Assembly (NCBI RefSeq): GCF_036556685.1
Contig: NZ_CP140614.1
Span: 310,001-374,000, forward strand
Direction of reading: 5' to 3'
Origin: Sulfurospirillum sp. 1612
GTDB lineage: Bacteria; Campylobacterota; Campylobacteria; Campylobacterales; Sulfurospirillaceae
DNA length: 64,000 bases
Part shown: in pieces, positions 2,833 to 18,744 of the stretch
Layout: each line of letters begins with the position of its first letter
Position numbering within the stretch: the stretch's first letter is position 1
Translations under genes and position numbers: made by a program
Notes under the pieces: model-generated
Seen by the model: only the letters and a program-made list of their open reading frames with translations
Told to the model about the DNA's origin: nothing
The model's database searches: none

Positions 2833-4484
2833 GCATCCCTTTTAATGGTGACAACAGAATATCTCCCTGAGACAAAATTTTCGTTAGTAAGTGCACAATT
2901 GGCCGCTTTATTATCTCCGGTGGCATGAAAATCGGTAAAGGCCATAGAGTGATTGATAATCACACCGCCAATTAAATTGACAGAGAGATTGACCTTTTCA
3001 TCAATAGCAATGGCTTCTACCTTTTCTATAAAGTCTTCATCTGAACTGTACACTCCTGCGGTAATGGCGCCATGATGTTTGATGGTATCTTGCCAAACGT
3101 TTAGGGAATCTTCTCGTGAATCGGTTTCGATGAGTAAAATCACTGGCCCAAAATGCTCAGATTGATAGCGCTCTTTATCTTTGGCAGAGACTTTCACCAC
3201 AGCCGGTGTCTTGATGGTCGCATTGTCAAACAGCGGATGTTTGATGTCACGCGATGGAAGTAACATGGTGCCGAGAGTATCGGCCTCTTTCACCCTTTGG
3301 CAGATGCCATCATTTTGGATTGCTCCCAAGATCTCAACCGCACGCTCATCCACGGAGAGAAGTTTTTCGATACTGCCGGTGATGATAGCAGCGACGTCAT
3401 CAAAGGAGATTTTCTCTCCATTAGAGATAATCCCATCTTTTGGAATAAAGATATTTTGTGGAGCCGTACACATTTGTGATGAATACAAGCTAAGGGCCAA
3501 GGAGAGGTTTCTTCCCATGGCTTTGAGGTCATTAAAGTGATCGACGATGACACAATTGACACCGGCTTTTTCGGTATAAACATTGGCTTGAGGCGCATTT
3601 TTTTCCAGCCAATCACCAAATCCAGTGCTTCCGGTGAAGTCGATTAATTTCACATGCTCATCTTTGACGAGTTTTTGAGTTTCAGCGCGATCTTCACTAA
3701 TAATCATGGAGATAACATTGGGATTGATTCCATTTTCTGCCAATACGTCACGTGCAATCTTAACACTGAGGGCAATTGGCAAAATGACATTACTATGGGG
3801 TTTATAGATGACAGAATTGCACGCTAGTAATGAGGAAAAGAGTGCCGAATAAGAATTCCATGTTGGAAATGTGGAGCATGTGATGATGACAGAAATCCCT
3901 TTGGGTACGACCACAAATTTACGGTTTGTAACAATGGGTGGATTTTTGCCCATTGGTTTTTCAAAACGAGATGTTGTAGGAATGTTTTTTAATTGTCGAT
4001 AGGTATAAGCCAAAGCTTCAAGTCCACGATCTTGTGCATGAGGACCTCCGGCTTGAAAAGACATCACATAAGGTTGTCCGGTTGTATGCATCACGGCATT
4101 GGCCATTTCAAAACTGTGTTGGTTCAAACGATCAAGTATCTCAAGACAGATACCCGCGCGCGTATCAAGGGGAATCTTTTTCCACTCTTGCATGGCACAA
4201 AGCGCGTCCTTGATTAAAGTATCTGCATCGATGGCAGGATATTTGATATTGAGGTCAAACCCATAAGGTGACACTTCAGAGCCAAGATAAGTGTTACTTT
4301 TTAACCCATCTATTTCAAAATGTTTTCCACATTGTGATTGAAAAGATTCTGTTGCTTTTTCTTTTGCTCCCTCTCCATAAACTTTTGAACTTGGCATTTC
4401 AAAGTAGGGTGACCAAAAACCTCTATTGCTGATTTCCTCGAGTGCTCGCTTCAGTGTTTTGTTATGCTTCTCAAAAAGACTCAT
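2829..4484 (-). CDS. paaN: PaaN-type aldehyde dehydrogenase (PaaZ-like, no hydratase domain)
   Basis: Aldehyde dehydrogenase superfamily protein of 551 residues matching the PaaN family: FTGSTGFG near residue 280 is the NAD-site glycine motif, and QMCTAPQN carries the catalytic cysteine. In the aerobic phenylacetate route the enzyme oxidises the semialdehyde made by ring cleavage of oxepin-CoA. Bifunctional PaaZ is about 680 residues with a C-terminal MaoC-like hydratase that opens the ring; here the protein stops at the end of the dehydrogenase, so that activity must come from another protein. RBS AAGGA before ATG. Divergent from paaF over an AT-rich 164-bp region. Function is confident at pathway level; exact substrate is inferred. 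Confidence 0.85.
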   Translation of the reverse strand: MSLFEKHNKTLKRALEEISNRGFWSPYFEMPSSKVYGEGAKEKATESFQSQCGKHFEIDGLKSNTYLGSEVSPYGFDLNIKYPAIDADTLIKDALCAMQEWKKIPLDTRAGICLEILDRLNQHSFEMANAVMHTTGQPYVMSFQAGGPHAQDRGLEALAYTYRQLKNIPTTSRFEKPMGKNPPIVTNRKFVVVPKGISVIITCSTFPTWNSYSALFSSLLACNSVIYKPHSNVILPIALSVKIARDVLAENGINPNVISMIISEDRAETQKLVKDEHVKLIDFTGSTGFGDWLEKNAPQANVYTEKAGVNCVIVDHFNDLKAMGRNLSLALSLYSSQMCTAPQNIFIPKDGIISNGEKISFDDVAAIITGSIEKLLSVDERAVEILGAIQNDGICQRVKEADTLGTMLLPSRDIKHPLFDNATIKTPAVVKVSAKDKERYQSEHFGPVILLIETDSREDSLNVWQDTIKHHGAITAGVYSSDEDFIEKVEAIAIDEKVNLSVNLIGGVIINHSMAFTDFHATGDNKAANCALTNENFVSGRYSVVTIKRDA

Positions 4485-4648: not shown

Positions 4649-5419
4649 ATGAGTTTTGAAGATATAAAAATCGAGCTTCATGAAGATGACATTCTTCTCA
4701 TTACTTTGAATCGTAATGAAGTATATAATGCACTCAGAACTCAAACACTACAAGAGATAAGTGCCGCATTATTACATTATAAAGAGACGATTAAATGTGT
4801 AGTTTTGACCGGGGGAGAAAAAGTATTTGCTGCTGGTGCTGATATTGATGAATTGGCGACAAAAGGGACTTTAGAATCGCTTCATGATACACGCACCTCT
4901 TATTGGGAGTCAATCAAAAATTACAAACACCCAATAATCGCCGCAGTCAATGGCTTTTGCTTGGGTGGTGGCTGTGAATTGGCGATGCATTGTGACATTA
5001 TTATTGCAGGTGAAAAGGCAAAATTTGGGCAACCAGAAATCAATCTTGGCATCATGCCAGGAGCGGGGGGTACCCAACGCAGTGTGAGAGCGATGGGTAA
5101 ATCCAATGCGATGTTACTGTTACTATGTGGAACATTTATCGATGCAAAAAGGGCACAAGAGATGCATCTTGTTTCCGAAGTGGTTGCCACCGATGAGACT
5201 ATCAATCGGGCATTGGAGCTTGCCAGTGTCATTGCATCAAAATCTCCACTCGCCATTAGTGCGATAAAAAGTGCAGTTTTAGAATCATTTGAAGGGGGGC
5301 TTAATGCCTCGTTAAAGTATGAAAAAATGCTCTTTTCCGGACTTCTCTCTAGTGAAGATAAAACAGAGGGAATAAACGCATTTAAAGAAAAACGAAAACC
5401 AAATTTTAAGGGAAAATAA
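4649..5419 (+). CDS. paaF: Enoyl-CoA hydratase, PaaF-like
   Basis: Crotonase of 256 residues. It has the oxyanion-hole segment AAGADI and both catalytic glutamates of true hydratases: GGGCELA (about residue 112) and FGQPEI (about residue 132), followed by PGAGGTQR. In the pathway PaaF hydrates 2,3-dehydroadipyl-CoA to 3-hydroxyadipyl-CoA. First gene of a seven-gene rightward operon; its TAA shares a base with the ATG of the next gene. RBS AAAGGG. A second very similar crotonase lies at 14649-15422, so which of the two is the real PaaF cannot be decided from sequence. Confidence 0.85.
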   Translation: MSFEDIKIELHEDDILLITLNRNEVYNALRTQTLQEISAALLHYKETIKCVVLTGGEKVFAAGADIDELATKGTLESLHDTRTSYWESIKNYKHPIIAAVNGFCLGGGCELAMHCDIIIAGEKAKFGQPEINLGIMPGAGGTQRSVRAMGKSNAMLLLLCGTFIDAKRAQEMHLVSEVVATDETINRALELASVIASKSPLAISAIKSAVLESFEGGLNASLKYEKMLFSGLLSSEDKTEGINAFKEKRKPNFKGK

Positions 5420-6210
5420 TGTCATATACTACTATCAAATTGGAGTTGTCTCAAAGTATCGCACAATTGACACTCAATCGACCCGAAGTTTTTAATTCAC
5501 TGAATGAAACCATGCACGAAGAGCTCAAAGATGCACTGATGCGAATCAAAAGTGATACAACAATTCGCGTGTTGGTCATCACAGGAGAAGGACGCGCCTT
5601 TTGTGCTGGACAAGATCTCAATGATCGTTCTGTCAATAATCAAGATGAGAAGATTGACCTTGGTGCTTCTATTGAAAAGAAATACAATCCCCTTATCACA
5701 TCAATTTATAATTTAGAAATTCCAGTAATCGCCAAGATTAATGGAGTGGCAGCCGGAGCAGGAGTGGGGATTGCACTCGCATGTGATTTTGTCATCGCCT
5801 CAGAGCGCGCCTCTTTTATCCAAGCGTTTTGTAAAATCGGTTTGGTACCTGATAGCGGTATTAGCTATTTCTTGCCGCGACTTATCGGGATGGCACGAGC
5901 TAAAGCCTTGTGTATGCTAGGGGATAAATTAGAGGCAAGCGTGGCATTAGAATATGGATTGATTACGAAAGTGTGTCCAAAAGAAACACTCGATGAATCC
6001 GTGTCACAATTGGCAACACAACTCTCAAAAGCACCGACTTATGGACTCTCTTTAATCAAAAAAGAGCTCAATGCTTCGATGGAAAACTCCCTTGATGCAC
6101 AGTTGGAATTAGAAAAAAATCTCCAACGACGTGCTGGATATTCTAACGATTACAAAGAAGGGGTGAATGCATTTTTACAAAAGCGTGCCCCTGAATTTAA
6201 AGGAAACTAA
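5419..6210 (+). CDS. paaG: 1,2-epoxyphenylacetyl-CoA isomerase, PaaG
   Basis: Crotonase superfamily, 263 residues. Unlike its neighbour it lacks the two hydratase glutamates (GAGVGIALA and FIQAFCKIG instead) and has the aspartate in VPDSGISYFLPR that acts in PaaG. PaaG converts ring-1,2-epoxyphenylacetyl-CoA to oxepin-CoA and later shifts the double bond of a downstream intermediate. Its presence is the strongest sign that an epoxide of phenylacetyl-CoA is really formed in this organism. Overlaps paaF by one base and is followed after one base by paaH. Confidence 0.88.
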   Translation: MSYTTIKLELSQSIAQLTLNRPEVFNSLNETMHEELKDALMRIKSDTTIRVLVITGEGRAFCAGQDLNDRSVNNQDEKIDLGASIEKKYNPLITSIYNLEIPVIAKINGVAAGAGVGIALACDFVIASERASFIQAFCKIGLVPDSGISYFLPRLIGMARAKALCMLGDKLEASVALEYGLITKVCPKETLDESVSQLATQLSKAPTYGLSLIKKELNASMENSLDAQLELEKNLQRRAGYSNDYKEGVNAFLQKRAPEFKGN

Positions 6211-6211
6211 G

Positions 6212-7732
6212 ATGAAACTGGATCAAAATGCACGTATTGGTATCGTAGGGGCCGGTATCATGGGGCGAGGTATTGCTCAAGTTGTTGCCAAGTCAAATCA
6301 CTCTGTCGTTTTGTATGACAATTGGGATGGGGCTGTTGATAATGCGATGAAAATCAATGAACAAGAATTATCAAAATTGGTACAAAGAGGCAAGCTTACC
6401 CAAGAGAAAAAGGACAAGACGCTGGCATTGATAACCCCTAGCATGAAAATCGAAGATCTCGCAGATTGTGATTTGATCATCGAGGCCATTATTGAAAATT
6501 TGGAGATTAAACAAAAAGTATTCAAAGAATTAGAAACAATCTGTGGCGATGTCGTGATTGCCTCAAATACTTCATCGATTTCGATCTCTGCTTTGGCTAA
6601 TGGGATGCAAAGACCCCAAAATATCATCGGATTGCACTTTTTTAATCCCGCACCTATCATGAAACTTGTTGAAGTGATATCGGGATTGCAAAGTGATCAA
6701 AATATCATTCAAGATGTTTATGCCCTCGCCAATTCTTGGGGTAAAAAAGCGGTATTGGTGAAATCCAGTCCCGGATTTATCGTCAATCGTATCGCCAGAC
6801 CTTTTTATGCGGAAGCTTTGCGGGTTTATGAAGAGGGAGTTTCAGATTTTGCGACGATTGATGCGGTTGTGAAAAGTCATGGAGCCTTTCGCATGGGACC
6901 GTTTGAATTGATGGATTTGATTGGCAATGATACCAATTATGCTGTGACACAATCTACTTTTGATTCTTATTACCAAGACCCCAGGTTCAAACCTTCACTG
7001 ACCCAGCAAGAGTATGCCCAAGCGGGTTTGCTAGGACGCAAATCAAATCAAGGATTTTATACCTATCATGATGGAAAGCCAGTAGAAGAGCCCAAGCTAA
7101 ATATTGCAACCATCAAACCCACGCCAATTGAGGAGATTTTCGTACACGGAGACCTTGGAATGGCCAACAGTCTCATTGCAATGTTTGAGCAGGCTGGAAT
7201 TCGTGTCAACAAAAAAGAAGGAACGGGATTTTTAGAGTGCCATGGCGTTATCCTCTATCTTGCCAATGGGAAAATGGCCACAGAAGTATCAAAAGAGCTC
7301 GATTATAATGAAGTCGCACAGTTTGATATCTGTATGGACTATGAAAAGAGTGAATTCATCGCCGTAGCCCGTTCACTTTTAGCCTCTGATGACACACTCA
7401 ATACCCTAGCGGCACTCTTTGATAAGATTGGCAAAAAGACTCTCATCGTGAAAGACTCCCCCGCGCTTATCATGATGCGTACTATTAGTATGCTAGTCAA
7501 TGAAGCCTCATCTGCTGTGACGCACCGTGTGTGTGATGTCAAAAGTGCTGATATCGCGATGGAAAATGGTGTGAATTATCCGATTGGGCCTTTTAAATGG
7601 GCTGACAAATTAGGAATTGATTGCATCGTAAGTGCCTTGGATCGATTGGAAGCATTTTATAAGGATACAAGATACCGAACAGATCGAGGTTTGATCGAAA
7701 AAAATTTAACAGGAAGTAAATACTATGAATGA
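6212..7732 (+). CDS. paaH: 3-hydroxyacyl-CoA dehydrogenase, PaaH
   Basis: NAD-dependent 3-hydroxyadipyl-CoA dehydrogenase, 506 residues, the two-module 3HCDH architecture of PaaH/PaaC. The Rossmann motif GAGIMGRG is at about residues 11-18; the catalytic region NTSSISI, GLHFFNPAP and SSPGFIVNR follows. A second 3HCDH C-terminal module is at about 390-490 (VNEASSAV, NYPIGPF). The start at 6212 has RBS AAAGGA; an upstream in-frame extension would run inside paaG and is rejected. It ends eight bases inside paaI, indicating translational coupling. Confidence 0.88.
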   Translation: MKLDQNARIGIVGAGIMGRGIAQVVAKSNHSVVLYDNWDGAVDNAMKINEQELSKLVQRGKLTQEKKDKTLALITPSMKIEDLADCDLIIEAIIENLEIKQKVFKELETICGDVVIASNTSSISISALANGMQRPQNIIGLHFFNPAPIMKLVEVISGLQSDQNIIQDVYALANSWGKKAVLVKSSPGFIVNRIARPFYAEALRVYEEGVSDFATIDAVVKSHGAFRMGPFELMDLIGNDTNYAVTQSTFDSYYQDPRFKPSLTQQEYAQAGLLGRKSNQGFYTYHDGKPVEEPKLNIATIKPTPIEEIFVHGDLGMANSLIAMFEQAGIRVNKKEGTGFLECHGVILYLANGKMATEVSKELDYNEVAQFDICMDYEKSEFIAVARSLLASDDTLNTLAALFDKIGKKTLIVKDSPALIMMRTISMLVNEASSAVTHRVCDVKSADIAMENGVNYPIGPFKWADKLGIDCIVSALDRLEAFYKDTRYRTDRGLIEKNLTGSKYYE

Positions 7733-8171
7733 AAAACAATTAGCAGAAGCATGTGTCAAAGCTTTGAATGAAAAAGCGATGTTTGAAAATCATCTTGGAG
7801 CCAAAATTGTTGCTGTCGATGCGGGTTATGCCAAACTGGTCATGCCGGTACAAGAATTTATGCTAAACGGACACCGAACGTGCCAAGGGGGTGCTATCTT
7901 TTCATTTGCAGATGCCGCCTTTGCGTATGCGTGTAACGGTCGTAATGTCCCTACTGTGGCTTTTGCTTGTGATATTACCTTTGTCAAGCCTGCTTTTGAG
8001 GGTGATGTCTTGACGGCTGAGGGTGTGGAGAAATATTTATCTGGCAGAAATGGTATTTATGATATTAAAGTGAGCAATCAAAAAGGAGAAACCATCGCCT
8101 TATTTGTCGGAAAATCGCGTGCGGTGGCCGGTAGTATTTTAGATGAGAAACAATTAAAGGAGATACAGTGA
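7725..8171 (+). CDS. paaI: Hotdog-fold acyl-CoA thioesterase, PaaI
   Basis: 148-residue hotdog thioesterase. The motif GHRTCQGGAIFSFADAAF has the residues typical of PaaI (Asn-Gly-His, Gly-Gly and the acidic Asp in the hotdog helix). PaaI releases CoA from ring-hydroxylated phenylacetyl-CoA derivatives that would otherwise tie up CoA, so it protects the pathway when the oxygenase stalls. Overlaps paaH by eight bases and paaJ by four. Confidence 0.87.
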   Translation: MNEKQLAEACVKALNEKAMFENHLGAKIVAVDAGYAKLVMPVQEFMLNGHRTCQGGAIFSFADAAFAYACNGRNVPTVAFACDITFVKPAFEGDVLTAEGVEKYLSGRNGIYDIKVSNQKGETIALFVGKSRAVAGSILDEKQLKEIQ

Positions 8172-9391
8172 GTGATGCATACATCGTAGATTATATACGA
8201 ACACCGGTAGGATCATACGGTGGCGCTTTATCGTCTGTGAGACCTGATGATTTGAGTGCTATCACGATCAAATACCTTATGGAACACAATCCCTCTATCA
8301 ATTTTGAAGAGGTTGATGATGTGATTATGGGCTGTGCAAACCAAGCAGGTGAGGATAACAGAAATGTGGCACGGATGGCCTCTTTGTTAGCAGGACTTCC
8401 TTATCAAAGTGGCGGTACCACCATCAACAGACTTTGTGGCTCTGGTATGGATGCTATTTCGATGGCGGCACGCAGTATCAAAACCGGTGAATGTGATCTC
8501 ATCATCGCAGGCGGTGTCGAGTCAATGTCACGTGCTCCTTTTGTGATGCCCAAGGCAGAACAAGCCTTTACCCGCTCTAACGCGGTCTATGATACGACTA
8601 TTGGATGGCGATTTGTCAATCCAGTCTTAAAAGAACTCTATGGCGTGGATTCGATGCCCGAAACCGCAGAAAACGTTGCGCAAGAATTTGGCATTACAAG
8701 AGAAGACCAAGACCGTTTTGCTTATCATTCTCAAATGAAGTGCAAAGCCGCAACACAAAGAGGTTTTTTCAAAAAAGAGATTGTTCCGGTGCGTGTTAAA
8801 AGAAGAAAACAAGAGGATTTGATTGTAGATTGTGATGAATTTCCAAAACCCAATACTACGATGGAAGTATTAGCCACTTTGCGTGCTCCTTTTGCTAAAG
8901 TTAATGGAAGTGTTACCGCGGGTAATGCCTCTGGTGTAAATGATGGGGCAGGGGCGTTTATCATCGCATCGAGTGCGGCACTAAAAAGATATAATTTAAA
9001 ACCAAGAGCGAAAATTATCATCGGTGCGGTCGCTGGAGTACCGCCACGAATTATGGGAATGGGACCGCTATACTCCACTCAAAAAATCTTGAAAAAGAGT
9101 GGCTTGAGTTTAGATGATATGGATGTGTTTGAACTCAACGAAGCATTTGCATCGCAGTCTTTGGCTACATTACGAGGTTTGGGACTCAAAGATGACGAGG
9201 CAAAAGTCAATCCAAACGGTGGAGCGATTTCAATCGGACACCCTCTTGGAATGAGCGGTGCGAGACTTGTGATGACCGCGTTGAATCAACTCGAACAGAC
9301 CAATGGTAAATACGGTCTATGTTCGATGTGTATTGGTGTGGGACAAGGGATTTCGATAATCATAGAAAACTTAAATTCAAGCAAGGAGTAG
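8168..9391 (+). CDS. paaJ: 3-oxoadipyl-CoA thiolase, PaaJ
   Basis: Thiolase of 407 residues starting at a GTG with RBS AAGGAG. It has the nucleophilic cysteine in NRLCGSGMDA, ELNEAFASQ, the histidine in NGGAISIGHPLGMSGAR, and the C-terminal cysteine in CIGVGQG. PaaJ cleaves 3-oxoadipyl-CoA to succinyl-CoA and acetyl-CoA, and earlier 3-oxo-5,6-dehydrosuberyl-CoA. The operon context makes this more likely than a general acetyl-CoA acetyltransferase. Confidence 0.88.
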   Translation: MSDAYIVDYIRTPVGSYGGALSSVRPDDLSAITIKYLMEHNPSINFEEVDDVIMGCANQAGEDNRNVARMASLLAGLPYQSGGTTINRLCGSGMDAISMAARSIKTGECDLIIAGGVESMSRAPFVMPKAEQAFTRSNAVYDTTIGWRFVNPVLKELYGVDSMPETAENVAQEFGITREDQDRFAYHSQMKCKAATQRGFFKKEIVPVRVKRRKQEDLIVDCDEFPKPNTTMEVLATLRAPFAKVNGSVTAGNASGVNDGAGAFIIASSAALKRYNLKPRAKIIIGAVAGVPPRIMGMGPLYSTQKILKKSGLSLDDMDVFELNEAFASQSLATLRGLGLKDDEAKVNPNGGAISIGHPLGMSGARLVMTALNQLEQTNGKYGLCSMCIGVGQGISIIIENLNSSKE

Positions 9392-9393
9392 AG

Positions 9394-10695
9394 ATGGAAA
9401 AGAGTAAAAGAACGGTAAGTTATGAACCAAAAGAGCTTATCTCAAAGGATGAATTGACGGCGCTTCAAACCAGAAGAATGAAAAATACATTGCTTCGAGC
9501 CTATTCATTTGTGCCCTACTATAAGAAAAAGTGGGACGAACACGGAGTGCATCCTGATGATTTTACTTTTTTGGAAGATATTAAAAAATTTCCTTTTACC
9601 ACAAAAGAAGATTTGAGATTAAACTATCCATTTGGACTCTTTGCGACACCGATGAGTGATATCGTGAGACTTCATGCATCAAGTGGAACAACCGGCAAGC
9701 CAACAGTCGTAGGATATACGCAAAATGATATTAATATGTGGGCTGATTTGGTGGCACGCTCCATCCGACTTGCCGGTGGACATCGTGGCGATATCTTACA
9801 TGTCTCTTATGGATATGGGCTTTTTACCGGAGGATTGGGTGCGCATTATGGTGCGGAGCGACTTGGTTGTACGGTCGTACCAGCATCTGGTGGATTTACC
9901 GATAAGCAAGTGACCCTGTTAAATGATTTTAATGCCAATATTATCATGGTGACCCCTTCGTACATGCTCAATATCATAGAAGAGTTAGAAAACAGAGGAA
10001 TTGACCCCCGAGATACTGCATTAGAGATTGGTATTTTTGGTGCGGAGCCTTGGTCTGTTGAGATGAAAAATAAGATTGAAGAAAAAGTGGGGATTTCCGC
10101 CATTGATATCTACGGACTCTCTGAAATGATGGGACCGGGTGTGGCATGTGAATCTTTTGAAGATCGCGGTGATTTGTATGTTTGGGAAGATAGTTTTTAT
10201 CCAGAAATCGTTGATCGTGATACGTTTGAACCCATTGAAGATGGCCAAGAGGGTGAGTTGGTATTTACTACATTGACACGCGAAGCCCTACCGATTATTA
10301 GATACCGAACCAAAGATCTCTCCACCCTTTACCAGGGCGATTTACTCAATATGCGAAAGATGAAGCGTATTACAGGACGTACTGATGATATGATGATTAT
10401 TCGCGGGGTGAATGTATTCCCATCACAAATCGAGGAAATCTTGCTCAAAATCAAAGCACTGTGCCCATGTTATCAGTTGGTTATCACGCGAGAACACAAT
10501 ATGGATGACCTCTCCATCGATATCGAGCCAAATCCAAATGTGAATGAAACCGAGATTAATAGTGCGGTGAAGACGTTGAAACACAAAATCAAATCAGGAA
10601 TCGGGATTTCTGTAAAAGTTAATGTCAAGCCAATCGGTGGTATTCCAAGAAGTCAAGGAAAAGCTCAAAGAGTTGTGGATAAAAGAAAGAAATAA
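9394..10695 (+). CDS. paaK: Phenylacetate-CoA ligase, PaaK
   Basis: Adenylate-forming ligase of 433 residues, the usual PaaK length. The P-loop-like motif HASSGTTGKPTVVGYT, the IYGLSEMMGPGVACE segment and the C-terminal RTDDMMIIRGVNVFPSQIE hinge are all present. It activates phenylacetate with ATP to phenylacetyl-CoA, the entry substrate of the ring oxygenase. The start at 9394 has RBS AAGGAG two bases after the paaJ stop; the longer in-frame version would lie inside paaJ. Confidence 0.9.
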   Translation: MEKSKRTVSYEPKELISKDELTALQTRRMKNTLLRAYSFVPYYKKKWDEHGVHPDDFTFLEDIKKFPFTTKEDLRLNYPFGLFATPMSDIVRLHASSGTTGKPTVVGYTQNDINMWADLVARSIRLAGGHRGDILHVSYGYGLFTGGLGAHYGAERLGCTVVPASGGFTDKQVTLLNDFNANIIMVTPSYMLNIIEELENRGIDPRDTALEIGIFGAEPWSVEMKNKIEEKVGISAIDIYGLSEMMGPGVACESFEDRGDLYVWEDSFYPEIVDRDTFEPIEDGQEGELVFTTLTREALPIIRYRTKDLSTLYQGDLLNMRKMKRITGRTDDMMIIRGVNVFPSQIEEILLKIKALCPCYQLVITREHNMDDLSIDIEPNPNVNETEINSAVKTLKHKIKSGIGISVKVNVKPIGGIPRSQGKAQRVVDKRKK

Positions 10696-10698
10696 AAG

Positions 10699-11304
10699 AT
10701 GCATTATTTAGAAGTAAAACTCGAGAAGCCATCGAAAACAGTTGATACATCGAGTTTTGTTTCTGAGATTATTAGAGCTCAAGATGATGTTATTTTGCGC
10801 TCTAATCATGCATTTTATGCCAAACGTTTGTTGGAATTGGGATTTTTATTTAATCCGACGACTCAAGGCTATGCGATGACCCAAACCCTTGATTTTGATA
10901 CGCTTTTTTTTCTTGCCAAAGAGATTGAGCTGCTCAAATATCATAAATTAATGCACGGATTTGTTCAATTGAAAATCCATCATGATAGATTATATTTTTG
11001 GGATACGGCCTTGATTTATGAGGGGATGGATTCTTTTGAATATTGTCTCAAATATCACAATATATTCCCACTGGAATCTGGCTATGTTCTCACCAAATCG
11101 GATGCAATACATACCGATATCTTAGAATTTGCAAATTGTATTAGAAGATATCAGGAACCAACACTAGCTTTTATCACCAAAGGGCTACTATGGGACGCGA
11201 AAGAGGGGGTAATCATCGAGAATACCCCTAGTGTGAATCGGAGAGAATATATTTCAAAAAATGATGCAAAAATATTTGATTTGTATTCTTTTCCTCAAAA
11301 GTAG
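10699..11304 (+). CDS. Unrecognised 201-residue protein, last gene of the paa operon
   Basis: I do not recognise this protein. It is soluble with no signal peptide or membrane segment. It starts three bases after the paaK stop with a weak RBS and ends 71 bases before paaX, so it almost certainly belongs to the paa operon. Visible features are many aromatic residues, a His-rich segment LKIHHDRLYFWDT (about 95-107), and CLKYHN and FANCIRR with its only two cysteines. The context would allow a role in regulation, in ring opening, or as an accessory factor of the diiron oxygenase, but nothing in the sequence decides between these. Confidence 0.75.
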   Translation: MHYLEVKLEKPSKTVDTSSFVSEIIRAQDDVILRSNHAFYAKRLLELGFLFNPTTQGYAMTQTLDFDTLFFLAKEIELLKYHKLMHGFVQLKIHHDRLYFWDTALIYEGMDSFEYCLKYHNIFPLESGYVLTKSDAIHTDILEFANCIRRYQEPTLAFITKGLLWDAKEGVIIENTPSVNRREYISKNDAKIFDLYSFPQK

Positions 11305-11375: not shown

Positions 11376-12308
11376 GTGAAAAACAATCAAAATACGAATG
11401 AAGTCGATGAGTATTTAGAAGCACTACTCAAAGAGATTTCCCCCAAAGCAAAATCATTAATTATTACCTTTTTTGGGGATACCGTTTTCCCTTATGGTGG
11501 TACCATTTGGTTGGGCTCATTAGTGAAATTTATGGAAGAGTTTGATATTAGCGAAAAACTGACACGTACCTCGATATTTAGACTCACAAAAGAGGGCTGG
11601 TTGAGCTCAAAAAAGTTTGGTAGAGAGAGTTATTATTCACTGAGTGATTATGCCATCGACCGATTTGTCAAAGCGCATTATAGTGTTTATGCCTATGATG
11701 AACAAGATGAGGATCATAACTGGATTGTTTTATTTACCAATGCTCTAAAACCGGCAAAAGAGTTTGAATTGTCCAAGATTTTGAAAAAAGAGGGCTTTGC
11801 ATCGCAATCAAAATTTACCTATTTACATCCCAATTATAAGATGGAATATATGCAAGATATTTTGATTAAATATGAATTGCAAAATGATGTTTTACTCATC
11901 AATGGCACAGCAGATATGCCGATGAACAAAGAGATGCTAAAAGATATGGTCAATGTCTTTTGGGATTTAAAAGATGTTGAAGAACGCTATCAGAGTTTTA
12001 TCACCAAATTTAGGAAAATTTTCACACTGAAAACACCGATTGATGAATTTAGCACAAAACAGTGTTTTATTCTGAGAATTTTATTGATTCATGAGTATCG
12101 AAGGGCTCTTTTATTTGACCCAAAATTAGGAAATGAATTGGTTTCGGTAGATTGGTTAGGAAAGGCTGCTGCTTCTTTAGTGGACTCTCTTTATAGCTCC
12201 ATTCACAATCAAGCCAATGAATATATCAGAGAAAACCTCCTCACAGTAGGGGGCAATAACCCCAAACTTCAAAAGTCCTATTTTAGTAGATTTGGCGGAT
12301 TGAAATAA
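11376..12308 (+). CDS. paaX: Phenylacetic acid degradation transcriptional repressor PaaX
   Basis: GntR-like winged-helix repressor of the PaaX family, 310 residues, full length. The N-terminal motif SLIITFFGDTVFPYGGTIWL and the recognition-helix region LTRTSIFRLTKEGWL (about residues 66-80) are diagnostic. The C-terminal DFRIL-type domain includes LLIHEYRRALLFDP. In other bacteria PaaX represses paa operons and is released by phenylacetyl-CoA. It lies between the catabolic operon and the oppositely oriented diiron/reductase pair, which supports common regulation. GTG start with AGGA seven bases before it. Confidence 0.92.
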   Translation: MKNNQNTNEVDEYLEALLKEISPKAKSLIITFFGDTVFPYGGTIWLGSLVKFMEEFDISEKLTRTSIFRLTKEGWLSSKKFGRESYYSLSDYAIDRFVKAHYSVYAYDEQDEDHNWIVLFTNALKPAKEFELSKILKKEGFASQSKFTYLHPNYKMEYMQDILIKYELQNDVLLINGTADMPMNKEMLKDMVNVFWDLKDVEERYQSFITKFRKIFTLKTPIDEFSTKQCFILRILLIHEYRRALLFDPKLGNELVSVDWLGKAAASLVDSLYSSIHNQANEYIRENLLTVGGNNPKLQKSYFSRFGGLK

Positions 12309-12313
12309 TCCGC
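12295..12313. terminator. Small inverted repeat at convergent gene ends
   Basis: GCGGATT (12295-12301) and AATCCGC (12307-12313) pair perfectly around a five-base loop and overlap the stop codons of paaX and the convergent reductase gene. A short bidirectional terminator is possible; the stem is only seven base pairs. Confidence 0.4.
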
Positions 12314-13332
12314 TACCCTACTTGTTGGGCGAAATACTCTTCCATGTGGATTAAATCTTCTTCCGCTCCAAGTGCTTCGACGGTTTTTTTACAAGATTCG
12401 ACAAAGGGAACGCTTCCTGCAATATAAATAGAATAATTTGCAAGATTTGGCAGTAAATCCGGTAAAATAGCATCGATTCGACCTTCTAATCCTCCATCTT
12501 TGTTGCTTTCTTGTGTGAGGGTGTATTTGTATTTAAAATTGACATATTTGGATTCTAAATATTTCATCTCACCAAAGTGCAAGAGGTCTTTTTTGGTTTT
12601 TGCTGAAAATAGCAACGTAACGGGATTTTTGTGACCGCGGCTGAGGTAAGCATTCAAAAGGGATAAAATCGGTGCCAAACCGCTTCCTGATGCCAAACAG
12701 AGAATCGGAGTATCGACACTAGGGTCTCCCAAAAATGTGCCATAAGGCGCATTGACTTTGATATTATCGCCGATATTTGTATCATGATGAATCCAAGGAC
12801 TTGTTTTGCCCTCCGCTTCTTTAGTGATAAAAAAGCTCAATTCCCCGTTTTGTTTTGGTGCATTTGCGATAGAATAAGGACGCAGAGGATGCTCATCAGT
12901 TCCCTCGCCAATCATCGCATATTGCCCAGGCCAAAATTTGATTGCTTTGCCTAGTGGCAAGAGTTTGAGTTCCATAATTTTATCGGTTCGCTGTATTTTA
13001 TCAGTGATGATGTGCCAAGAATTTTCAACCGGAGGAAAGAGTTTCGGTTGGGCATCTTGAGTTCCAAATTCAATTTCTAGCACATCAGAAGTTGGTTTTG
13101 CCATGCACATTAAACCATATCCTGCGGCTCTGTCTGCTTGAGATAGTGCCATGTCCATGACAAACCCTTGGTCAAAGGTACCACTTAAAACTTTGATCTT
13201 GCACTCTCCACAAGCACCAGCTCGGCAATTGTTAGGTAGGGCGTATCCTTGTTTTTCTAAGACGGAAAGTACGGATTCCCCATCGGGGCAATCGATAGAT
13301 TTGCCCGATGGTTGGATGATTATTTTTTTCAT
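12313..13332 (-). CDS. Ferredoxin-NAD(P)H reductase (N-terminal 2Fe-2S) of a two-component oxygenase
   Basis: Flavin/iron-sulfur electron-transfer protein of 339 residues. Residues 1-90 are a plant-type [2Fe-2S] ferredoxin with cysteines 36, 41, 44 and 76. An FAD domain (RPYS at 151-154) and an NAD(P) domain (ASGSGLAP at 214-221) follow. This order, ferredoxin first, is that of BenC and MmoC reductases; PaaE of the classical epoxidase has its ferredoxin at the C-terminus. The gene follows the diiron protein after 24 bases on the same strand, so it very likely supplies electrons from NAD(P)H to that diiron centre. The partner is inferred; the domains are clear. Confidence 0.88.
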   Translation of the reverse strand: MKKIIIQPSGKSIDCPDGESVLSVLEKQGYALPNNCRAGACGECKIKVLSGTFDQGFVMDMALSQADRAAGYGLMCMAKPTSDVLEIEFGTQDAQPKLFPPVENSWHIITDKIQRTDKIMELKLLPLGKAIKFWPGQYAMIGEGTDEHPLRPYSIANAPKQNGELSFFITKEAEGKTSPWIHHDTNIGDNIKVNAPYGTFLGDPSVDTPILCLASGSGLAPILSLLNAYLSRGHKNPVTLLFSAKTKKDLLHFGEMKYLESKYVNFKYKYTLTQESNKDGGLEGRIDAILPDLLPNLANYSIYIAGSVPFVESCKKTVEALGAEEDLIHMEEYFAQQVG

Positions 13333-13356
13333 GATCTTTGACCTATATTAAATTTT

Positions 13357-14382
13357 TTAGAATACTGGGATGATGTCTTCCATATCGATATCATTGACTT
13401 CTTTGCCTGTGATACCTACTTCTGGAATCGCTGGGAATTCTGTATCGTATTTATCTAAAACCCCTTTGAGGTTCAACATGGCATTTTTCCAATTCTCTTT
13501 TTTCGCTTCATATTCAGGGATGTGAAAACCAGCTTCCCTAGCAAAAGCTTCCCCTTCTCTTTGATTGTCGATAAAGTCTGATGGAATATCCCAAAAATCA
13601 AGAGGTGGCTCAAATAAGACTGCGGAGAGGAACAGATAACCGGCTCTGATTTGTTTGGTAATCGTCGCTTTATCTTCATCATTGAGTTTTGGATAATCGC
13701 GCTCCATCAATGTCAAGATGATGGCCATATGACGCCCTTCATCCATACCGATTTTCTTAAAGCCCTCTTTAAATACAAGCTCACTACATCCTGCTGACAT
13801 TTGATGAAAGATAGTAGCTGCTGCGATTTCACCCATCAAAAATGATGAGAAAAGGACCGCTAGAGAGTATTTTGGCACGGCATGTTTGTAACCATCCCAA
13901 TATCGTCCCCCATTGTAATACAACCATTTCGCATTTTTTTGGAGTCTACGACCGATGTCGGTTTTGGGTGTATAGGTGATTGGGTCTGGATGTTCTAATA
14001 ATTTTGTGATAGCCATACCACACATTTGTTCGTGATTTTGTTCATCTCTTGTAACAGAAAAGAAACATCTTCGTACTAAATCCTCTTCATGCAATTCATA
14101 AGTCTTAATCAGTGCAGATGCAAATACCGGTGGCGCAGAAGCATCAAATACAGAGAGGATGGTCCACCAATAAGCGATAGACTCTCTTTGTTCCCATGTG
14201 TATTTTGAAACATCAAAAGTATCCCAAGGCAGTTTTGCAGGGTCCCAATACTCTCTTTGAGAGGCATCCCAGATTTCTTGTAACTTCATGGTTTCATTAA
14301 CCCAACTTAGTGGATAAACATTTGGCTGTTCTGTTGGTGGTGGTAATTCCATTGTGCCGGCAAGTTTTTCTCTGCTTGACAT
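13357..14382 (-). CDS. R2/ferritin-like diiron oxygenase, candidate phenylacetyl-CoA epoxidase
   Basis: A 341-residue, mostly helical protein with the carboxylate-bridged diiron signature of the ribonucleotide reductase R2 / R2-like oxidase class: E114-x-x-H117 (DEQNH), E185 (MGEIA) about 30 residues before E215-x-x-H218 (DEGRH), and D80 (FDASAPP) 34 before E114 as likely first ligand. It is not PaaA or PaaC by motif, and it is shorter than BoxB (about 470). No R1 subunit or other nucleotide-reduction gene is near; instead it is paired with an oxygenase-type reductase inside a complete paa cluster that lacks paaABCDE. I infer that it activates O2 on phenylacetyl-CoA. General annotation as ribonucleotide reductase beta chain is the main alternative. 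RBS AAGGAG. Confidence 0.72.
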   Translation of the reverse strand: MSSREKLAGTMELPPPTEQPNVYPLSWVNETMKLQEIWDASQREYWDPAKLPWDTFDVSKYTWEQRESIAYWWTILSVFDASAPPVFASALIKTYELHEEDLVRRCFFSVTRDEQNHEQMCGMAITKLLEHPDPITYTPKTDIGRRLQKNAKWLYYNGGRYWDGYKHAVPKYSLAVLFSSFLMGEIAAATIFHQMSAGCSELVFKEGFKKIGMDEGRHMAIILTLMERDYPKLNDEDKATITKQIRAGYLFLSAVLFEPPLDFWDIPSDFIDNQREGEAFAREAGFHIPEYEAKKENWKNAMLNLKGVLDKYDTEFPAIPEVGITGKEVNDIDMEDIIPVF

Positions 14383-14480
14383 TTTTGCTCCTTATAAAGT
14401 TTTATATAAATATAATTCAAAAATTTATCTATAACTAAAATTATTGTATCATATATATTTTAATAAATGCTTAAATTCTT
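14383..14480 (-). promoter_or_regulatory. Probable promoter of the diiron oxygenase/reductase pair
   Basis: On the minus strand TTTAAGCATT begins at 14475, 93 bases before the start codon, like the TTTAAG boxes in front of paaF, livK and livH. TATGAT/TACAAT hexamers downstream could serve as -10. The outer half-sites of the 41-bp liv element are not conserved here. Confidence 0.4.
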
Positions 14481-14583: not shown

Positions 14584-14621
14584 AAATATAACTATACTAA
14601 AAAAATAGTATAGTTATATTT
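14584..14621 (-). terminator. Perfect 16-bp hairpin after the liv operon
   Basis: Arms 14584-14599 and 14606-14621 are exact complements with a loop of six A. It lies just downstream of the crotonase gene that ends the leftward liv operon and before the diiron gene, so it separates two transcription units. A T-run (TTTTTT) lies on the plus-strand side; the minus-strand side has only TTTC. Confidence 0.75.
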
Positions 14622-14648: not shown

Positions 14649-15422
14649 TTAATTTTTAAAGTTTGGTGGGCGCTTTTGGATGAAGGCTTCCATCCCCTCG
14701 ATTCTATCTTCCAGTGCCAATGTGGTATAAAAAGATTGACGCTCAGCGGCGAGTCCTGCTTGTAGGTTGGATTCGTAGGCATTATTGATGGACTCTTTAA
14801 TCAATCTCACCACGGGTTTGGACATTTTGGCGATTTTCTGAGCGATTTTAATGGCTTCACTTTTGACATCATGATCTACAATTTGTGAGACTAATTTAAA
14901 AGATGCGGCCTCTTCGGCGTCAATGATATCACCGGTCAAACACAGATGCATCGCTTTGGATTTTCCGATTGCTTTGGTGAGTCTTTGTGTGCCTCCCGCT
15001 CCTGGCATGGTACCGATTTTGACCTCAGGTTGTCCAAACTTTGCACTTTTATCACAGATGGCAATATCGCATAAGAGCGCCATCTCACAACCGCCTCCTA
15101 GTGCATATCCACTGATGGCCGCGATGATGGGTTTGATGTGATGCTCTAGGGCATACCACTCTTTTTTGATAAATTCATTCTGATAAGCGCTGGCAAAATC
15201 TAACTCTGCCAACTCTTTGATATCTGCTCCCGCTGCAAACACTTTTTCCCCACCGGTTAATACCACCGCTGCTATATCAGGATTGGCATCAAAATCTTTG
15301 ATAGCATTAGAAACCTCTGCCAGCAAAGCGTTATTGATGGCATTGTAAGCTTCGGGTCGGTTGAGTGTGATGATGCCCACACCATTATCTAATTCTTCCA
15401 CAATAATATTTTTATAATTCAT
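14649..15422 (-). CDS. Second enoyl-CoA hydratase in the liv operon
   Basis: Crotonase of 257 residues with both hydratase glutamates (GGGCEMA and FGQPEV) and PGAGGTQR, closely resembling the PaaF-like protein at 4649-5419. Its ATG follows the livF stop directly, so it is the last gene of livH-livM-livG-livF-ech. Co-transcription with an importer and nearness to the oxygenase suggest that it works on the same CoA thioesters. It could be the actual PaaF, or the missing oxepin-CoA ring-opening hydratase that PaaN lacks. Confidence 0.83.
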   Translation of the reverse strand: MNYKNIIVEELDNGVGIITLNRPEAYNAINNALLAEVSNAIKDFDANPDIAAVVLTGGEKVFAAGADIKELAELDFASAYQNEFIKKEWYALEHHIKPIIAAISGYALGGGCEMALLCDIAICDKSAKFGQPEVKIGTMPGAGGTQRLTKAIGKSKAMHLCLTGDIIDAEEAASFKLVSQIVDHDVKSEAIKIAQKIAKMSKPVVRLIKESINNAYESNLQAGLAAERQSFYTTLALEDRIEGMEAFIQKRPPNFKN

Positions 15423-16148
15423 TTACATTCCTAAATAAGCTTCTTTGACACGTTTGTCTTTGATTAAATCTTCTGAATTGCCACTGAGTACAATCTCTCC
15501 GTTTTCAAGAACATAAGCATGATTGGAGATACTCAGCGCAAAATAAGAATTTTGCTCAACCAAAAAGACGGTCATGTGAATTTTTTTTAACTCTTCGATA
15601 AAGGCAAAAATCTCCTCGACAATCACCGGAGCCAATCCCATCGACGGCTCATCCATCAATAAGAGATCAGGCTTTGACATCAAGGCCCTGCCGATGGCGA
15701 GCATTTGCTGTTGTCCGCCGGAGAGATTGCCAGAGATGATCTCCTTTTTCTCAAAAAGAATTGGAAATTTTTCATATACAAAATCCAAATCATCCTGAAT
15801 ATCATTTTTGTTGCTTCTGGTATAAGAGCCCAACATAAGGTTGTCATACACGCTCATGGATTTGAAGAGTTCGCGTCCCTCAGGCACTTGAGCGATGCCA
15901 AGTTTGACTCTTTTCTCCGGCAATGATTTTGTGATATCAATATTGTCTTTGTAGATGATATCCCCACGATCTTGTATTTTAAGCCCGGAGATGGTTTTCA
16001 TCAACGTCGTTTTTCCTGCGCCATTGGCACCGATGAGCGCGACGATTTCGCCTTTTTTGATTTCTATATTGATATTTTGCAACACATGAATGTGTCCATA
16101 ATGACAATCTAAATCACTGATTTTCAGTAGCGTATCAGACTTATGCAT
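15423..16148 (-). CDS. livF: ABC transporter ATPase LivF-type
   Basis: ATP-binding subunit of a branched-chain amino acid/aromatic acid (HAAT) importer, 241 residues. Walker A GANGAGKTTL, signature LSGGQQQML and Walker B LLLMDEPSMGL are all present. Overlaps livG by eight bases. In the paa context the transporter probably imports phenylacetate or another aryl acid; substrate class is inferred from neighbours only. Confidence 0.88.
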   Translation of the reverse strand: MHKSDTLLKISDLDCHYGHIHVLQNINIEIKKGEIVALIGANGAGKTTLMKTISGLKIQDRGDIIYKDNIDITKSLPEKRVKLGIAQVPEGRELFKSMSVYDNLMLGSYTRSNKNDIQDDLDFVYEKFPILFEKKEIISGNLSGGQQQMLAIGRALMSKPDLLLMDEPSMGLAPVIVEEIFAFIEELKKIHMTVFLVEQNSYFALSISNHAYVLENGEIVLSGNSEDLIKDKRVKEAYLGM

Positions 16149-16911
16149 GTAAGGATCCTTCCCCTAAATAGGCTTTGATGACTTCGGGATTTGATGCAAT
16201 CTCTTTAGGCGTACCCTCGGCTAATTTTTTCCCAAAATTCACCACAGTGATAAAATCTGAAATATTCATAATCATCTTCATATCATGTTCAATCAACAAA
16301 ATAGTAACGCCCTCAGCGGCAATTTCACGAATAATCTCAGCAATCTCAGCCGTCTCCGTACCATTGAGCCCGGCGACAGGTTCATCAAGCAGCAACAATT
16401 TTGGATTGTTGGCTAGGGCTCTGACAATCTCGACTTTTTTGAGCACCCCATAAGAGAGCGCGGAGCATTTTTTATACGCCACACTTTCCAGTCCGATGCG
16501 TTTGAGGTGGGAGAGGGCGATGTGTTTGAATTTTTCTTCATCATCAATGATGGATTCAAACTGAAATGAGCATTTAAGCAGGCTTTTGTTCATATTGATG
16601 TTAAATCCCAAAAGCACATTTTCCATCACGGTCATGTTTTCGCAAATCTCTAGATTTTGGAAGGTTCTTACGATATGTTGGTTCACCAGTTTGTGTGTTG
16701 GCGTATTGGTAATCTCTTTGTCATTAAAAAAGATTTGTCCCTCCTCGATTGAATAGATACCAGAAATCATATTTACCAGTGTGGTTTTACCTGCACCATT
16801 GGGGCCGATGAGGGCGTGAATCGTGCCCTCTTTTACTTCAAATGAGATATCATCGAGTGCTTTTAATCCTCCAAAGCTTTTCGAGAGATTGGAGATTTTT
16901 AGTAAACTCAT
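16141..16911 (-). CDS. livG: ABC transporter ATPase LivG-type
   Basis: 256 residues, LivG class: Walker A GPNGAGKTTL, the HIVRTFQNLEIC Q-loop, a signature slightly divergent from consensus (LSYGVLKKVEIVRAL), Walker B LLLLDEPVAGLN, and the C-terminal extension ending KAYLGEG. Starts in an ATGA overlap with the livM stop, with GGAGG just before. Confidence 0.88.
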   Translation of the reverse strand: MSLLKISNLSKSFGGLKALDDISFEVKEGTIHALIGPNGAGKTTLVNMISGIYSIEEGQIFFNDKEITNTPTHKLVNQHIVRTFQNLEICENMTVMENVLLGFNINMNKSLLKCSFQFESIIDDEEKFKHIALSHLKRIGLESVAYKKCSALSYGVLKKVEIVRALANNPKLLLLDEPVAGLNGTETAEIAEIIREIAAEGVTILLIEHDMKMIMNISDFITVVNFGKKLAEGTPKEIASNPEVIKAYLGEGSLHA

Positions 16912-17849
16912 ATTTCCTCCTTTCTAAACCGATCAAAAATGGAGACGATTCCTTTTGGCATAAAAATCATGACAAAGATGATAATAGCCCCAAAAACCAT
17001 CTGTTCATAATCGTGCAGTGATGTCAAAAGCTGTGGTAGTGCGGTGATGATGACCGCTCCAAAAACCGCGCCATAGATGCGTCCTAATCCTCCAAAAACA
17101 ATCATAACCACCAATTGGATAGAGCGGGTAAAACTGGAATCTGCTGGAGAGATAAATCCTGAATAATACGTATAAAGACTCCCTGCAATCGTTGCGATGA
17201 CAACGGAGAGTACAAAGACATAGGTCTTATAATAAGGAACATCTGCACCGATGGATTTGGCCGCAGTCTCTGAGTCTCGAATACAGCGAAGAATCCTTCC
17301 AAAAGGTGAATGAATCACATTTTGAAGGGCCCAAATCGAAAAGACCAAAAGAAATGCTGAGATGACATACCATTGCATATCATTTTCAAATACATAGCCA
17401 AAAATACTAAATTGTGATACGCCCATACCATCAGGACCGCCTGTGAGATCGGATTGATTGGTGAGGACCAATGAGATGATGATACCGATGGCCAAAGTGC
17501 CCATCGCAAGATAATGTCCTTCGAGTTTGAGGATGGGTTTGGATACCAAAAAGGCCAAAGCAGCCAAGACGATGCAGGATATCATGATACTCAAAACCGG
17601 ATCAAATTCAAATGTTGTTGATAAAATCACCGCCACATAAGCACCAAGTCCGGCAAAAGCCCCATGCCCTAGGGAGATTTGTCCCGCATAACCGACTAAC
17701 ATATTAAGACCAATACAGATGACGGCATTGAGCATGCTCGTAATGGCAATTTCATAATGGAAACTATTTTGCAATAACATAGGCAAAATACACAATATCA
17801 CAATCATCAAAACGATGCCCTTGTCTAAAAATAAACCTTTATTTCTCAT
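16908..17849 (-). CDS. livM: ABC transporter permease LivM-type
   Basis: Inner-membrane permease of the LivM class with about nine hydrophobic helices and the family motif GYAGQISLGHGAFAGLGAYV. I place the start at the ATG one base after the livH stop (314 residues). An in-frame TTG at 17879 would overlap livH by 29 bases and has no better RBS. GDP-type loop EAA motif region (RCIRDSETAAKSIG) is the ATPase contact. Confidence 0.85.
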   Translation of the reverse strand: MRNKGLFLDKGIVLMIVILCILPMLLQNSFHYEIAITSMLNAVICIGLNMLVGYAGQISLGHGAFAGLGAYVAVILSTTFEFDPVLSIMISCIVLAALAFLVSKPILKLEGHYLAMGTLAIGIIISLVLTNQSDLTGGPDGMGVSQFSIFGYVFENDMQWYVISAFLLVFSIWALQNVIHSPFGRILRCIRDSETAAKSIGADVPYYKTYVFVLSVVIATIAGSLYTYYSGFISPADSSFTRSIQLVVMIVFGGLGRIYGAVFGAVIITALPQLLTSLHDYEQMVFGAIIIFVMIFMPKGIVSIFDRFRKEEI

Positions 17850-17850
17850 C

Positions 17851-18744
17851 TTACACTCTCGCAAATTTTTTAGACCCAAACAGACCGCCTGGGAAGAAGA
17901 ATAGAATCAATAGCAATACGATAAAGGCGACGGCATCTTTGTATTCGCTACTCAAATAACCTGCGACAAAAGATTCCAAAATACCAAGGAGTACGCCACC
18001 AAACACTGCGCCAAAGGGATTACCGATACCTCCGATGATCGCGGCACAAAAGCCTTTGAGCCCGAGCATGACCCCAATTTCATAGTTCGTGGAGATGATG
18101 GGTGTCAGTACAATGCCCCCGATAGAAGCAATTCCTGCTGAAATCATAAAATTCCAAATCAAAATCTTGCGTACGGAGATACCTACTAATTTGGCGGCGT
18201 TTTTGTTATCAGCGGTTGCTAGCATTGCTTTTCCGATTTTTGTTTTGTTAAAAAGTACGTATAAGCCCAAAACGATTACCAAAGAGACAAGAATGACCAA
18301 GATGGCTTGTGGCGTAATCGTGGCGCCATAGATAGTGATTGGGGTATTGCTGATGAATGGAGGCAAGGTGTGCATTTGTTTATCAAACACAACCTGTGCG
18401 GCACCTCTTATGAAAATCGAATAGCCCAAGGTTAAAATGATGAGCGATGTCGTAGATGAATTTTTTGATATGGAGACCAGCTTAAATAATATATAGCCCA
18501 GCAATGATGAGAAAAATATCGCAATGGGAAAAGCCAATACAAAAGGAAAATGAGCATAAGATAAAAAGACCGCAGACATGCCTCCTATCATGACAAACTC
18601 CCCTTGTGAAAAGTTGATAATCTTGCTGGAGTTATAAATGACGGTAAATCCTAATCCAACGAGGGCATAAATAAAGCCAACCGTGAGACCCCCAAAGGTA
18701 AATTGTAATAATTCACTCATGAGAAGGGTCTTTAAAAACAACAA
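17851..18744 (-). CDS. livH: ABC transporter permease LivH-type
   Basis: Inner-membrane permease, 297 residues, LivH class with about eight helices and the motif LVGLGFTVIYNSSKIINFSQG. First gene of livH-livM-livG-livF-ech. The operon lacks a binding-protein gene; the LivK-type gene at 1013-2158 shares the upstream 41-bp element and is the probable partner. Confidence 0.87.
   Translation of the reverse strand: MLFLKTLLMSELLQFTFGGLTVGFIYALVGLGFTVIYNSSKIINFSQGEFVMIGGMSAVFLSYAHFPFVLAFPIAIFFSSLLGYILFKLVSISKNSSTTSLIILTLGYSIFIRGAAQVVFDKQMHTLPPFISNTPITIYGATITPQAILVILVSLVIVLGLYVLFNKTKIGKAMLATADNKNAAKLVGISVRKILIWNFMISAGIASIGGIVLTPIISTNYEIGVMLGLKGFCAAIIGGIGNPFGAVFGGVLLGILESFVAGYLSSEYKDAVAFIVLLLILFFFPGGLFGSKKFARV

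Follow-up and report, generated by a model that had tools for sequence, protein, structure and literature searches.

Two adjoining genes of the paa cluster in Sulfurospirillum sp. 1612, which encode a predicted diiron protein and a reductase, quite likely form a two-component phenylacetyl-CoA 1,2-epoxidase, acting as the sole enzyme for this step in some bacteria and as a low-oxygen isoenzyme in others. This assignment is based on genomic context, co-occurrence and conservation, from which we infer the substrate, the product, the electron transfer and the low-oxygen induction.

Organization of the paa Cluster

The window (the whole stretch of 64,000 nucleotides that was analysed) belongs to a complete campylobacterotal genome consisting of a single contig of 2,377,931 bases (2.38 Mb), and the pair sits inside its paa cluster. 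Both open reading frames are present at the coordinates and on the strand given in a preliminary description of this DNA, and the phenylacetate genes listed there (PaaF, G, H, I, J, K, N, X and Y) are all encoded. The cluster contains the following features:

2236..2832, minus strand: PaaY-like hexapeptide protein (translation, neighbourhood comparison)
2829..4484, minus strand: PaaN aldehyde dehydrogenase (708 bits, cut-off 579)
4649..5419, plus strand: PaaF1, enoyl-CoA hydratase-like, with a weaker match to the PaaG profile
5419..6210, plus strand: PaaG 1,2-epoxyphenylacetyl-CoA isomerase (346.7 bits, cut-off 345.15)
6167..7732, plus strand: PaaH-like 3-hydroxyacyl-CoA dehydrogenase (profile searches)
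7725..8171, plus strand: PaaI thioesterase (above cut-off)
8168..9391, plus strand: PaaJ-like thiolase (translation; kept in related clusters)
9319..10695, plus strand: PaaK phenylacetate-CoA ligase (620 bits, cut-off 646)
10699..11304, plus strand: 201-aa protein, family unassigned, between paaK and paaX
11376..12308, plus strand: PaaX-family regulator, convergent with the pair (profile searches)
12313..13332, minus strand: NAD(P)H reductase, 339 aa, downstream of the diiron gene (ORF, profiles, PDB relatives)
13357..14382, minus strand: predicted R2-like carboxylate-diiron oxygenase subunit, 341 aa (ORF, profiles, alignment, model)
14649..15422, minus strand: PaaF2 enoyl-CoA hydratase, upstream of the pair, beyond an inverted repeat (profile searches)
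15423..18744, minus strand: LivFGMH-type ABC transporter, which adjoins the pair in several lineages

The NCBIfam cut-offs are passed by PaaG, PaaN and PaaI, while PaaK and PaaX score slightly under theirs. The presence of PaaG implies that an epoxide is made. The pair adjoins paaX, as had been noted earlier, its reductase gene and the convergent regulator gene ending four bases apart. The earlier claim that paaABCDE is missing holds for the entire genome, in which a six-frame search with PF05138 (PaaA/PaaC) was negative. The BoxB profile likewise finds no match anywhere in the complete genome, and a true NrdB is encoded at a separate place (G000:C1:45248-46069).

Two further observations concern the surroundings of the pair. 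Copies of the protein encoded at 10699-11304, 43-48% identical, occur only in campylobacterotal paa clusters. Genes for IorA/IorB-like indolepyruvate ferredoxin oxidoreductase proteins lie near the cluster (21014-23355, plus strand), and their products could be a source of arylacetyl-CoA from aromatic amino acids.

The Predicted Diiron Protein

The ligand set proposed in the preliminary description (D80, E114, H117, E185, E215 and H218) is invariant in an alignment of 84 homologues; the ligands, together with C121, are kept even in two homologues that share 50% identity with the protein. At the sequence level the set follows the pattern D/E, ExxH, E, ExxH of the carboxylate-bridged diiron superfamily (ferritin-like, R2-like), and all six ligands fall in long helices of the predicted model.

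No Pfam or NCBIfam model reaches its cut-off for this protein, and NCBIfam and PHROGs return no match. The best Pfam match, AurF (PF11583), covers the metal-binding helices with 15 bits against a cut-off of 29.6; membership of the AurF N-oxygenases was rejected on this score. Ribonucleotide reductase R2 (PF00268), BoxB (TIGR03225) and PaaA/PaaC (PF05138) do not match, and a profile-profile comparison with PaaA revealed no relationship. BoxB identity was rejected as well, the profile being unmatched and none being present in the genome. A sequence search of the PDB, using the single protein and a 55-sequence profile, gave no significant relative.

An AlphaFold2 model built from 55 orthologues (pLDDT 89, pTM 0.87) is nearly all helical. 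The solved folds nearest to this predicted model are R2-like ligand-binding oxidases (Z 19-20, up to 19.7, at 10-13% identity), followed by class I R2 (Z 18-19) and the azoxy synthase VlmB (Z 18). PaaABC and BoxB structures are absent among the fold matches listed, with a relationship to them still possible.

The invariant residue C121, four residues past H117 (H+4), is a cysteine and not a tyrosine. We take this position to be that of the R2 radical tyrosine and to be equivalent to C151 in methane monooxygenase (MmoX). A cysteine at this place is more in keeping with an oxygenase than with a generator of radicals. The possibility of a true NrdB beside an NrdA, named in the preliminary description as one that would overturn its reading, is not borne out: PF00268 does not match, the NrdB of this genome is encoded elsewhere, and no NrdA occurs among the neighbouring genes. 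NrdB identity was rejected on the first two grounds and on the cysteine at H+4.

The Reductase

An N-terminal ferredoxin had been predicted for the reductase and is indeed found: the Fer2 domain spans residues 5-81, the FAD domain 113-200 and the NAD domain 213-315. This order of Fer2, FAD_binding_6 and NAD_binding_1 is the one that marks FNR-type oxygenase reductases. From the sequence, the [2Fe-2S] cluster would be held by Cys 36, 41, 44 and 76 (Cx4Cx2C...C). The closest profiles are the BenC and MmoC models, and the structural relatives in the PDB are the reductases of carbazole, benzoate and toluene oxygenases. The BoxA profile gives 29 bits against a cut-off of 459. In PaaE the ferredoxin domain comes last, opposite to the arrangement in this reductase.

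Distribution of the Pair

In a scan of one genome per species, 159 stretches encode a relative of the diiron protein. The best 80 of these 159 relatives, from at least 80 species genomes, are 75-89% identical to it and belong to Campylobacterota, Alpha-, Beta- and Gammaproteobacteria, Bdellovibrionota and others. In 80 of 80 loci the next gene downstream is that of the reductase, with the contig of one of them (L020) ending inside it. Because orthologues are widespread at this identity with the reductase directly downstream, the pair is not a chance association. Its conservation in a paa context, suggested beforehand as a check within Campylobacterota, thus extends well beyond that phylum. The pair is no campylobacterotal peculiarity, and many proteobacterial carriers own PaaABCDE as well, often with an FNR/Anr-type box ahead of the pair.

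At least one of six paa markers occurs within the fetched flanks at 49 of the 80 loci; the other 31 have none of the six in their fetched flanks, and several of those contigs are short. The gene order is paaF-G-H-I-J-K-pair-paaA...E in Marinospirillum and paaG-I-K-pair-paaA-B-C-D-E in Comamonas, and in Vitreoscilla the pair stands beside paaZ. A multi-subunit PaaABC complex with PaaD and PaaE is not indicated for the diiron protein: at the loci examined the reductase gene is its sole consistent neighbour, and the source genome has no PaaA/C. The gene is widespread but sparse: a sample of Pseudomonadota had it in one of 397 genomes besides the centre.

Two homologues at 50% identity probably represent a second subfamily for another aryl-CoA. 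On a plasmid of Variovorax sp. RA8 (L094:10001-12053), the gene is accompanied by a different reductase and has as neighbours a CoA ligase, a thiolase, MaoC, an OB-fold protein and an indolepyruvate (aromatic 2-oxoacid) ferredoxin oxidoreductase. In Nonomuraea (L095:9959-10981) it has no adjoining reductase. Since the Variovorax homologue belongs to another CoA-ester cluster, specificity for phenylacetyl-CoA need not extend to the wider family, which may act on several aryl-CoA esters. In a MAG named Stygiobacter (L015), the diiron gene groups tightly with Magnetospirillum genes; this MAG is probably mixed.

Probable Replacement of PaaABCDE

The pair occurs repeatedly where the known epoxidase is missing. 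Among 397 sampled genomes of Campylobacterota, three have the diiron gene, the same three have PaaG, and none has PaaA/PaaC. Identical triples would arise by chance with a probability of about 1e-7 if genomes were independent, although the three represent two genera and the true weight lies below this figure. Shared ancestry of related genomes makes p-values overstate independence in general.

PaaA/PaaC are absent in 24 of the 78 carrier loci tested (out of 80), absence meaning no PF05138 match, or weak BoxB-like ones in frames of at least about 500 aa; several of these carriers are incomplete MAGs. Among them are Arcobacteraceae, Sulfurospirillum, Magnetospirillum, Telmatospirillum, a Rhodospirillum MAG and Rhodocyclaceae, together with three Sedimenticola genomes, two of which come from named strains. 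Most tested carriers own PaaABCDE too.

PaaG exceeds its strict cut-off in all 11 tested genomes lacking PaaA/PaaC outside Campylobacterota and in six of seven distinct campylobacterotal carriers, the seventh falling just under. Overall, 19 of 22 genome handles tested lie above it, or 18 of 21 distinct genomes, G061 and G371 being evidently one. The three below are one Sulfurospirillum (just under) and two Bdellovibrionota holding a divergent PF05138 protein. Ordinary enoyl-CoA hydratases of control genomes stay under the strict cut-off.

On the gene tree, the state without PaaA/C requires about 10 changes, at least six of them forced by well-supported branches. The enzyme swap has therefore happened repeatedly, which is the usual signature of interchangeable enzymes.

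The sole counterpart of PaaA and PaaC in the genomes of L007, L008, L045 and L056 is a divergent member of PF05138 (E 1e-23 to 1e-39). It is about 280-300 aa long and lies beside enoyl-CoA hydratases in the two Bdellovibrionota genomes.

Upstream Elements

Two elements were located upstream of the diiron gene:

14443..14451, minus strand: TGATACAAT, extended -10-like element about 60 nt before the diiron start codon (comparison by eye)
14584..14621, no strand assigned: perfect 16-bp inverted repeat with a 6-nt loop, between paaF2 and the pair

Judged by eye, TGATACAAT is conserved upstream of the campylobacterotal orthologues. Hairpins with compensating changes stand at the equivalent place in four campylobacterotal loci (L003, L004, L005 and L098), and the inverted repeat probably acts as a terminator, so that the pair would be transcribed as a separate unit.

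In 29 of the 80 loci, confined to 8 of 35 lineages, an FNR/Anr-type box (TTGAYNNNNRTCAA) stands no more than 300 nt ahead of the diiron gene. Of the 789 other genes in these loci that have an upstream spacer, 29 are preceded by the same box (odds ratio 15). It is found in 13 of 15 Azospirillum loci, six of seven from Azoarcus/Thauera relatives and four of four from Marinospirillum, and upstream of paaA in three of 40 carriers. Carriers with PaaA/C have the box ahead of the pair in 26 of 49 cases, those without them in one of 24 (one of 16 when Campylobacterota and Bdellovibrionota are left out). This split is expected if the pair is a low-oxygen isoenzyme beside PaaABCDE and a general enzyme in its absence. 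In owners of PaaABCDE, the box sequence thus suggests a low-oxygen isoenzyme, or else a related second substrate. As the boxes are confined to a minority of lineages, the low-oxygen role is a lead and not a proof. At the source locus, and likewise at the other campylobacterotal loci, no FNR-type box is present at up to one mismatch. A near-FNR box with one mismatch (TTGATCTGTATCAT) lies 61-67 nt before paaA of Azospirillum (L101-L108 and L110); through it the canonical enzyme could be repressed when oxygen is low.

Proposed Reaction and Alternatives

In the proposed reaction, two electrons would travel from NAD(P)H to the diiron protein by way of the FAD and the [2Fe-2S] cluster of the reductase, giving the Fe(II)Fe(II) state. 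The reduced centre would then activate O2 and transfer a single oxygen atom to the phenylacetyl-CoA ring, yielding 1,2-epoxyphenylacetyl-CoA and water. PaaG would convert the epoxide to oxepin-CoA, and an enzyme of the enoyl-CoA-hydratase-type hydrolase kind, PaaN, PaaJ, PaaF and PaaH would carry out the remaining steps. A single catalytic subunit would suffice, versus two related ferritin-like subunits and PaaB in PaaABC. In Campylobacterota, Magnetospirillum, Telmatospirillum, Sedimenticola and some Rhodocyclaceae, where no other epoxidase was found, the pair would do this step alone. In Azospirillum, the Azoarcus/Thauera relatives and Marinospirillum it would be an extra isoenzyme, with FNR/Anr probably inducing it when oxygen is low. 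The compact phenylacetyl-CoA oxygenase envisaged in the preliminary description is therefore supported by co-occurrence and context, with phenylacetyl-CoA as the putative substrate and the epoxide as the putative product.

The substrate could be a related aryl-CoA, for instance 4-hydroxyphenylacetyl-CoA or indoleacetyl-CoA, whose product feeds the paa enzymes or a side branch. Most carriers own PaaABCDE too, so a different substrate is possible in those, and both the Variovorax homologue, in its cluster of CoA ligase, thiolase, MaoC and indolepyruvate ferredoxin oxidoreductase genes, and the IorAB-like genes near the source cluster point the same way. We nevertheless regard this as unlikely. 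Genomes without PaaA/PaaC keep a canonical PaaG, whose substrate in the known pathway is the phenylacetyl-CoA epoxide, and their clusters contain no oxygenase candidate but the pair; moreover, an identity of about 75-80% among orthologues from hosts with and without PaaA/PaaC speaks for a single substrate. The same PaaG-containing clusters lacking an epoxidase, one of them in a complete genome, are left unexplained if the pair, instead of epoxidising the ring, has an accessory task such as clearing stray epoxide or a different by-product. This role is very unlikely, even though the pair adjoins paaABCDE in Marinospirillum and Comamonas and PaaABCDE can itself deoxygenate its own epoxide. PMC9765128 cites work on this deoxygenation by the known epoxidase.

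A ribonucleotide reductase R2 or R2-like ligand-binding oxidase placed among paa genes by chance can hardly be entertained. These proteins are the closest folds, but the missing PF00268 match, the true NrdB elsewhere, the invariant Cys in place of Tyr four residues after H117, the conserved reductase partner and the recurring linkage to paa genes have already largely refuted it. A last alternative accepts the epoxidase reaction and denies it a special low-oxygen role, the boxes serving another regulator or neighbouring genes. Their origin from 8 of 35 lineages, the one-mismatch box at paaA in Azospirillum and a consensus that fits FNR, Anr and DNR alike are in its favour. We find it conceivable but doubtful, since boxes are far more frequent before the pair than before the other genes of these loci or before paaA, and are concentrated in genomes that also own PaaABCDE.

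Returning to the epoxidase reading in its broadest form, we lean towards the view that this diiron family, which lies outside the Pfam and NCBIfam models, represents a second, independently evolved way of phenylacetyl-CoA epoxidation. It would be a low-oxygen enzyme of two proteins, sole in microaerophiles and denitrifiers and on FNR/Anr-controlled standby beside PaaABCDE.

Relation to Published Work

No published description of the pair was found in the open-access literature. A gap-filling study of catabolic pathways (PMC9007349) reported a new oxepin-CoA hydrolase and assigned the oxygenation to paaABCDE. A 2026 survey (PMC13186573) reported PaaA and PaaC in all 825 proteomes having phenylacetate-CoA ligase, and use of the two proteins as general genomic markers for the degradation of phenylacetate has been recommended. 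Genomes with the pair and without PaaA/PaaC contradict this marker as a general rule, so that the pathway is missed in Campylobacterota, Magnetospirillum, Sedimenticola and others. The novelty concerns the enzyme family, the reaction being already known. If the assignment is true, this CoA-ester ring epoxidation, known so far from a multi-subunit complex, could be studied with one catalytic subunit and a reductase. Low-oxygen regulation, if true, would help to explain O2-dependent attack on aromatic rings where O2 is scarce.

Comparison with Known Systems

PaaABCDE (PF05138; PaaE, TIGR02160) shares with the pair the proposed reaction, the place in the paa cluster before PaaG and a diiron oxygenase supplied by a FAD/[2Fe-2S] reductase. 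In contrast to it, the pair has one diiron subunit instead of PaaA, PaaC and PaaB, has no PaaD, and shows no detectable sequence relationship in its diiron protein; its reductase carries the ferredoxin domain first, unlike PaaE. The BoxB/BoxA benzoyl-CoA 2,3-epoxidase resembles the pair in consisting of a single diiron subunit and one reductase and in acting, as proposed for the pair, on an aryl-CoA ester. However, BoxB is about 470 aa long, its profile is unmatched by the 341-aa diiron protein, and BoxA is a different type of reductase.

The predicted fold (Z 18-20) and the ligand spacing resemble those of R2lox and class I R2, from which the protein differs by its low identity (about 8-13%), its own reductase partner and the Cys instead of Tyr at the radical position. 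The first ligand is Asp in R2, as in the diiron protein, and Glu in R2lox. With the soluble methane and aromatic monooxygenases (MmoX/MmoC), the pair shares an MmoC-like reductase and the Cys four residues past the first histidine ligand, but it is without their second hydroxylase subunit, regulatory protein and matching Pfam family. The likeness to the AurF/CmlI N-oxygenases is confined to the weak AurF profile match below the cut-off, and the position of the extra histidine ligand of AurF presumably corresponds to the invariant Ile211 of the diiron protein.
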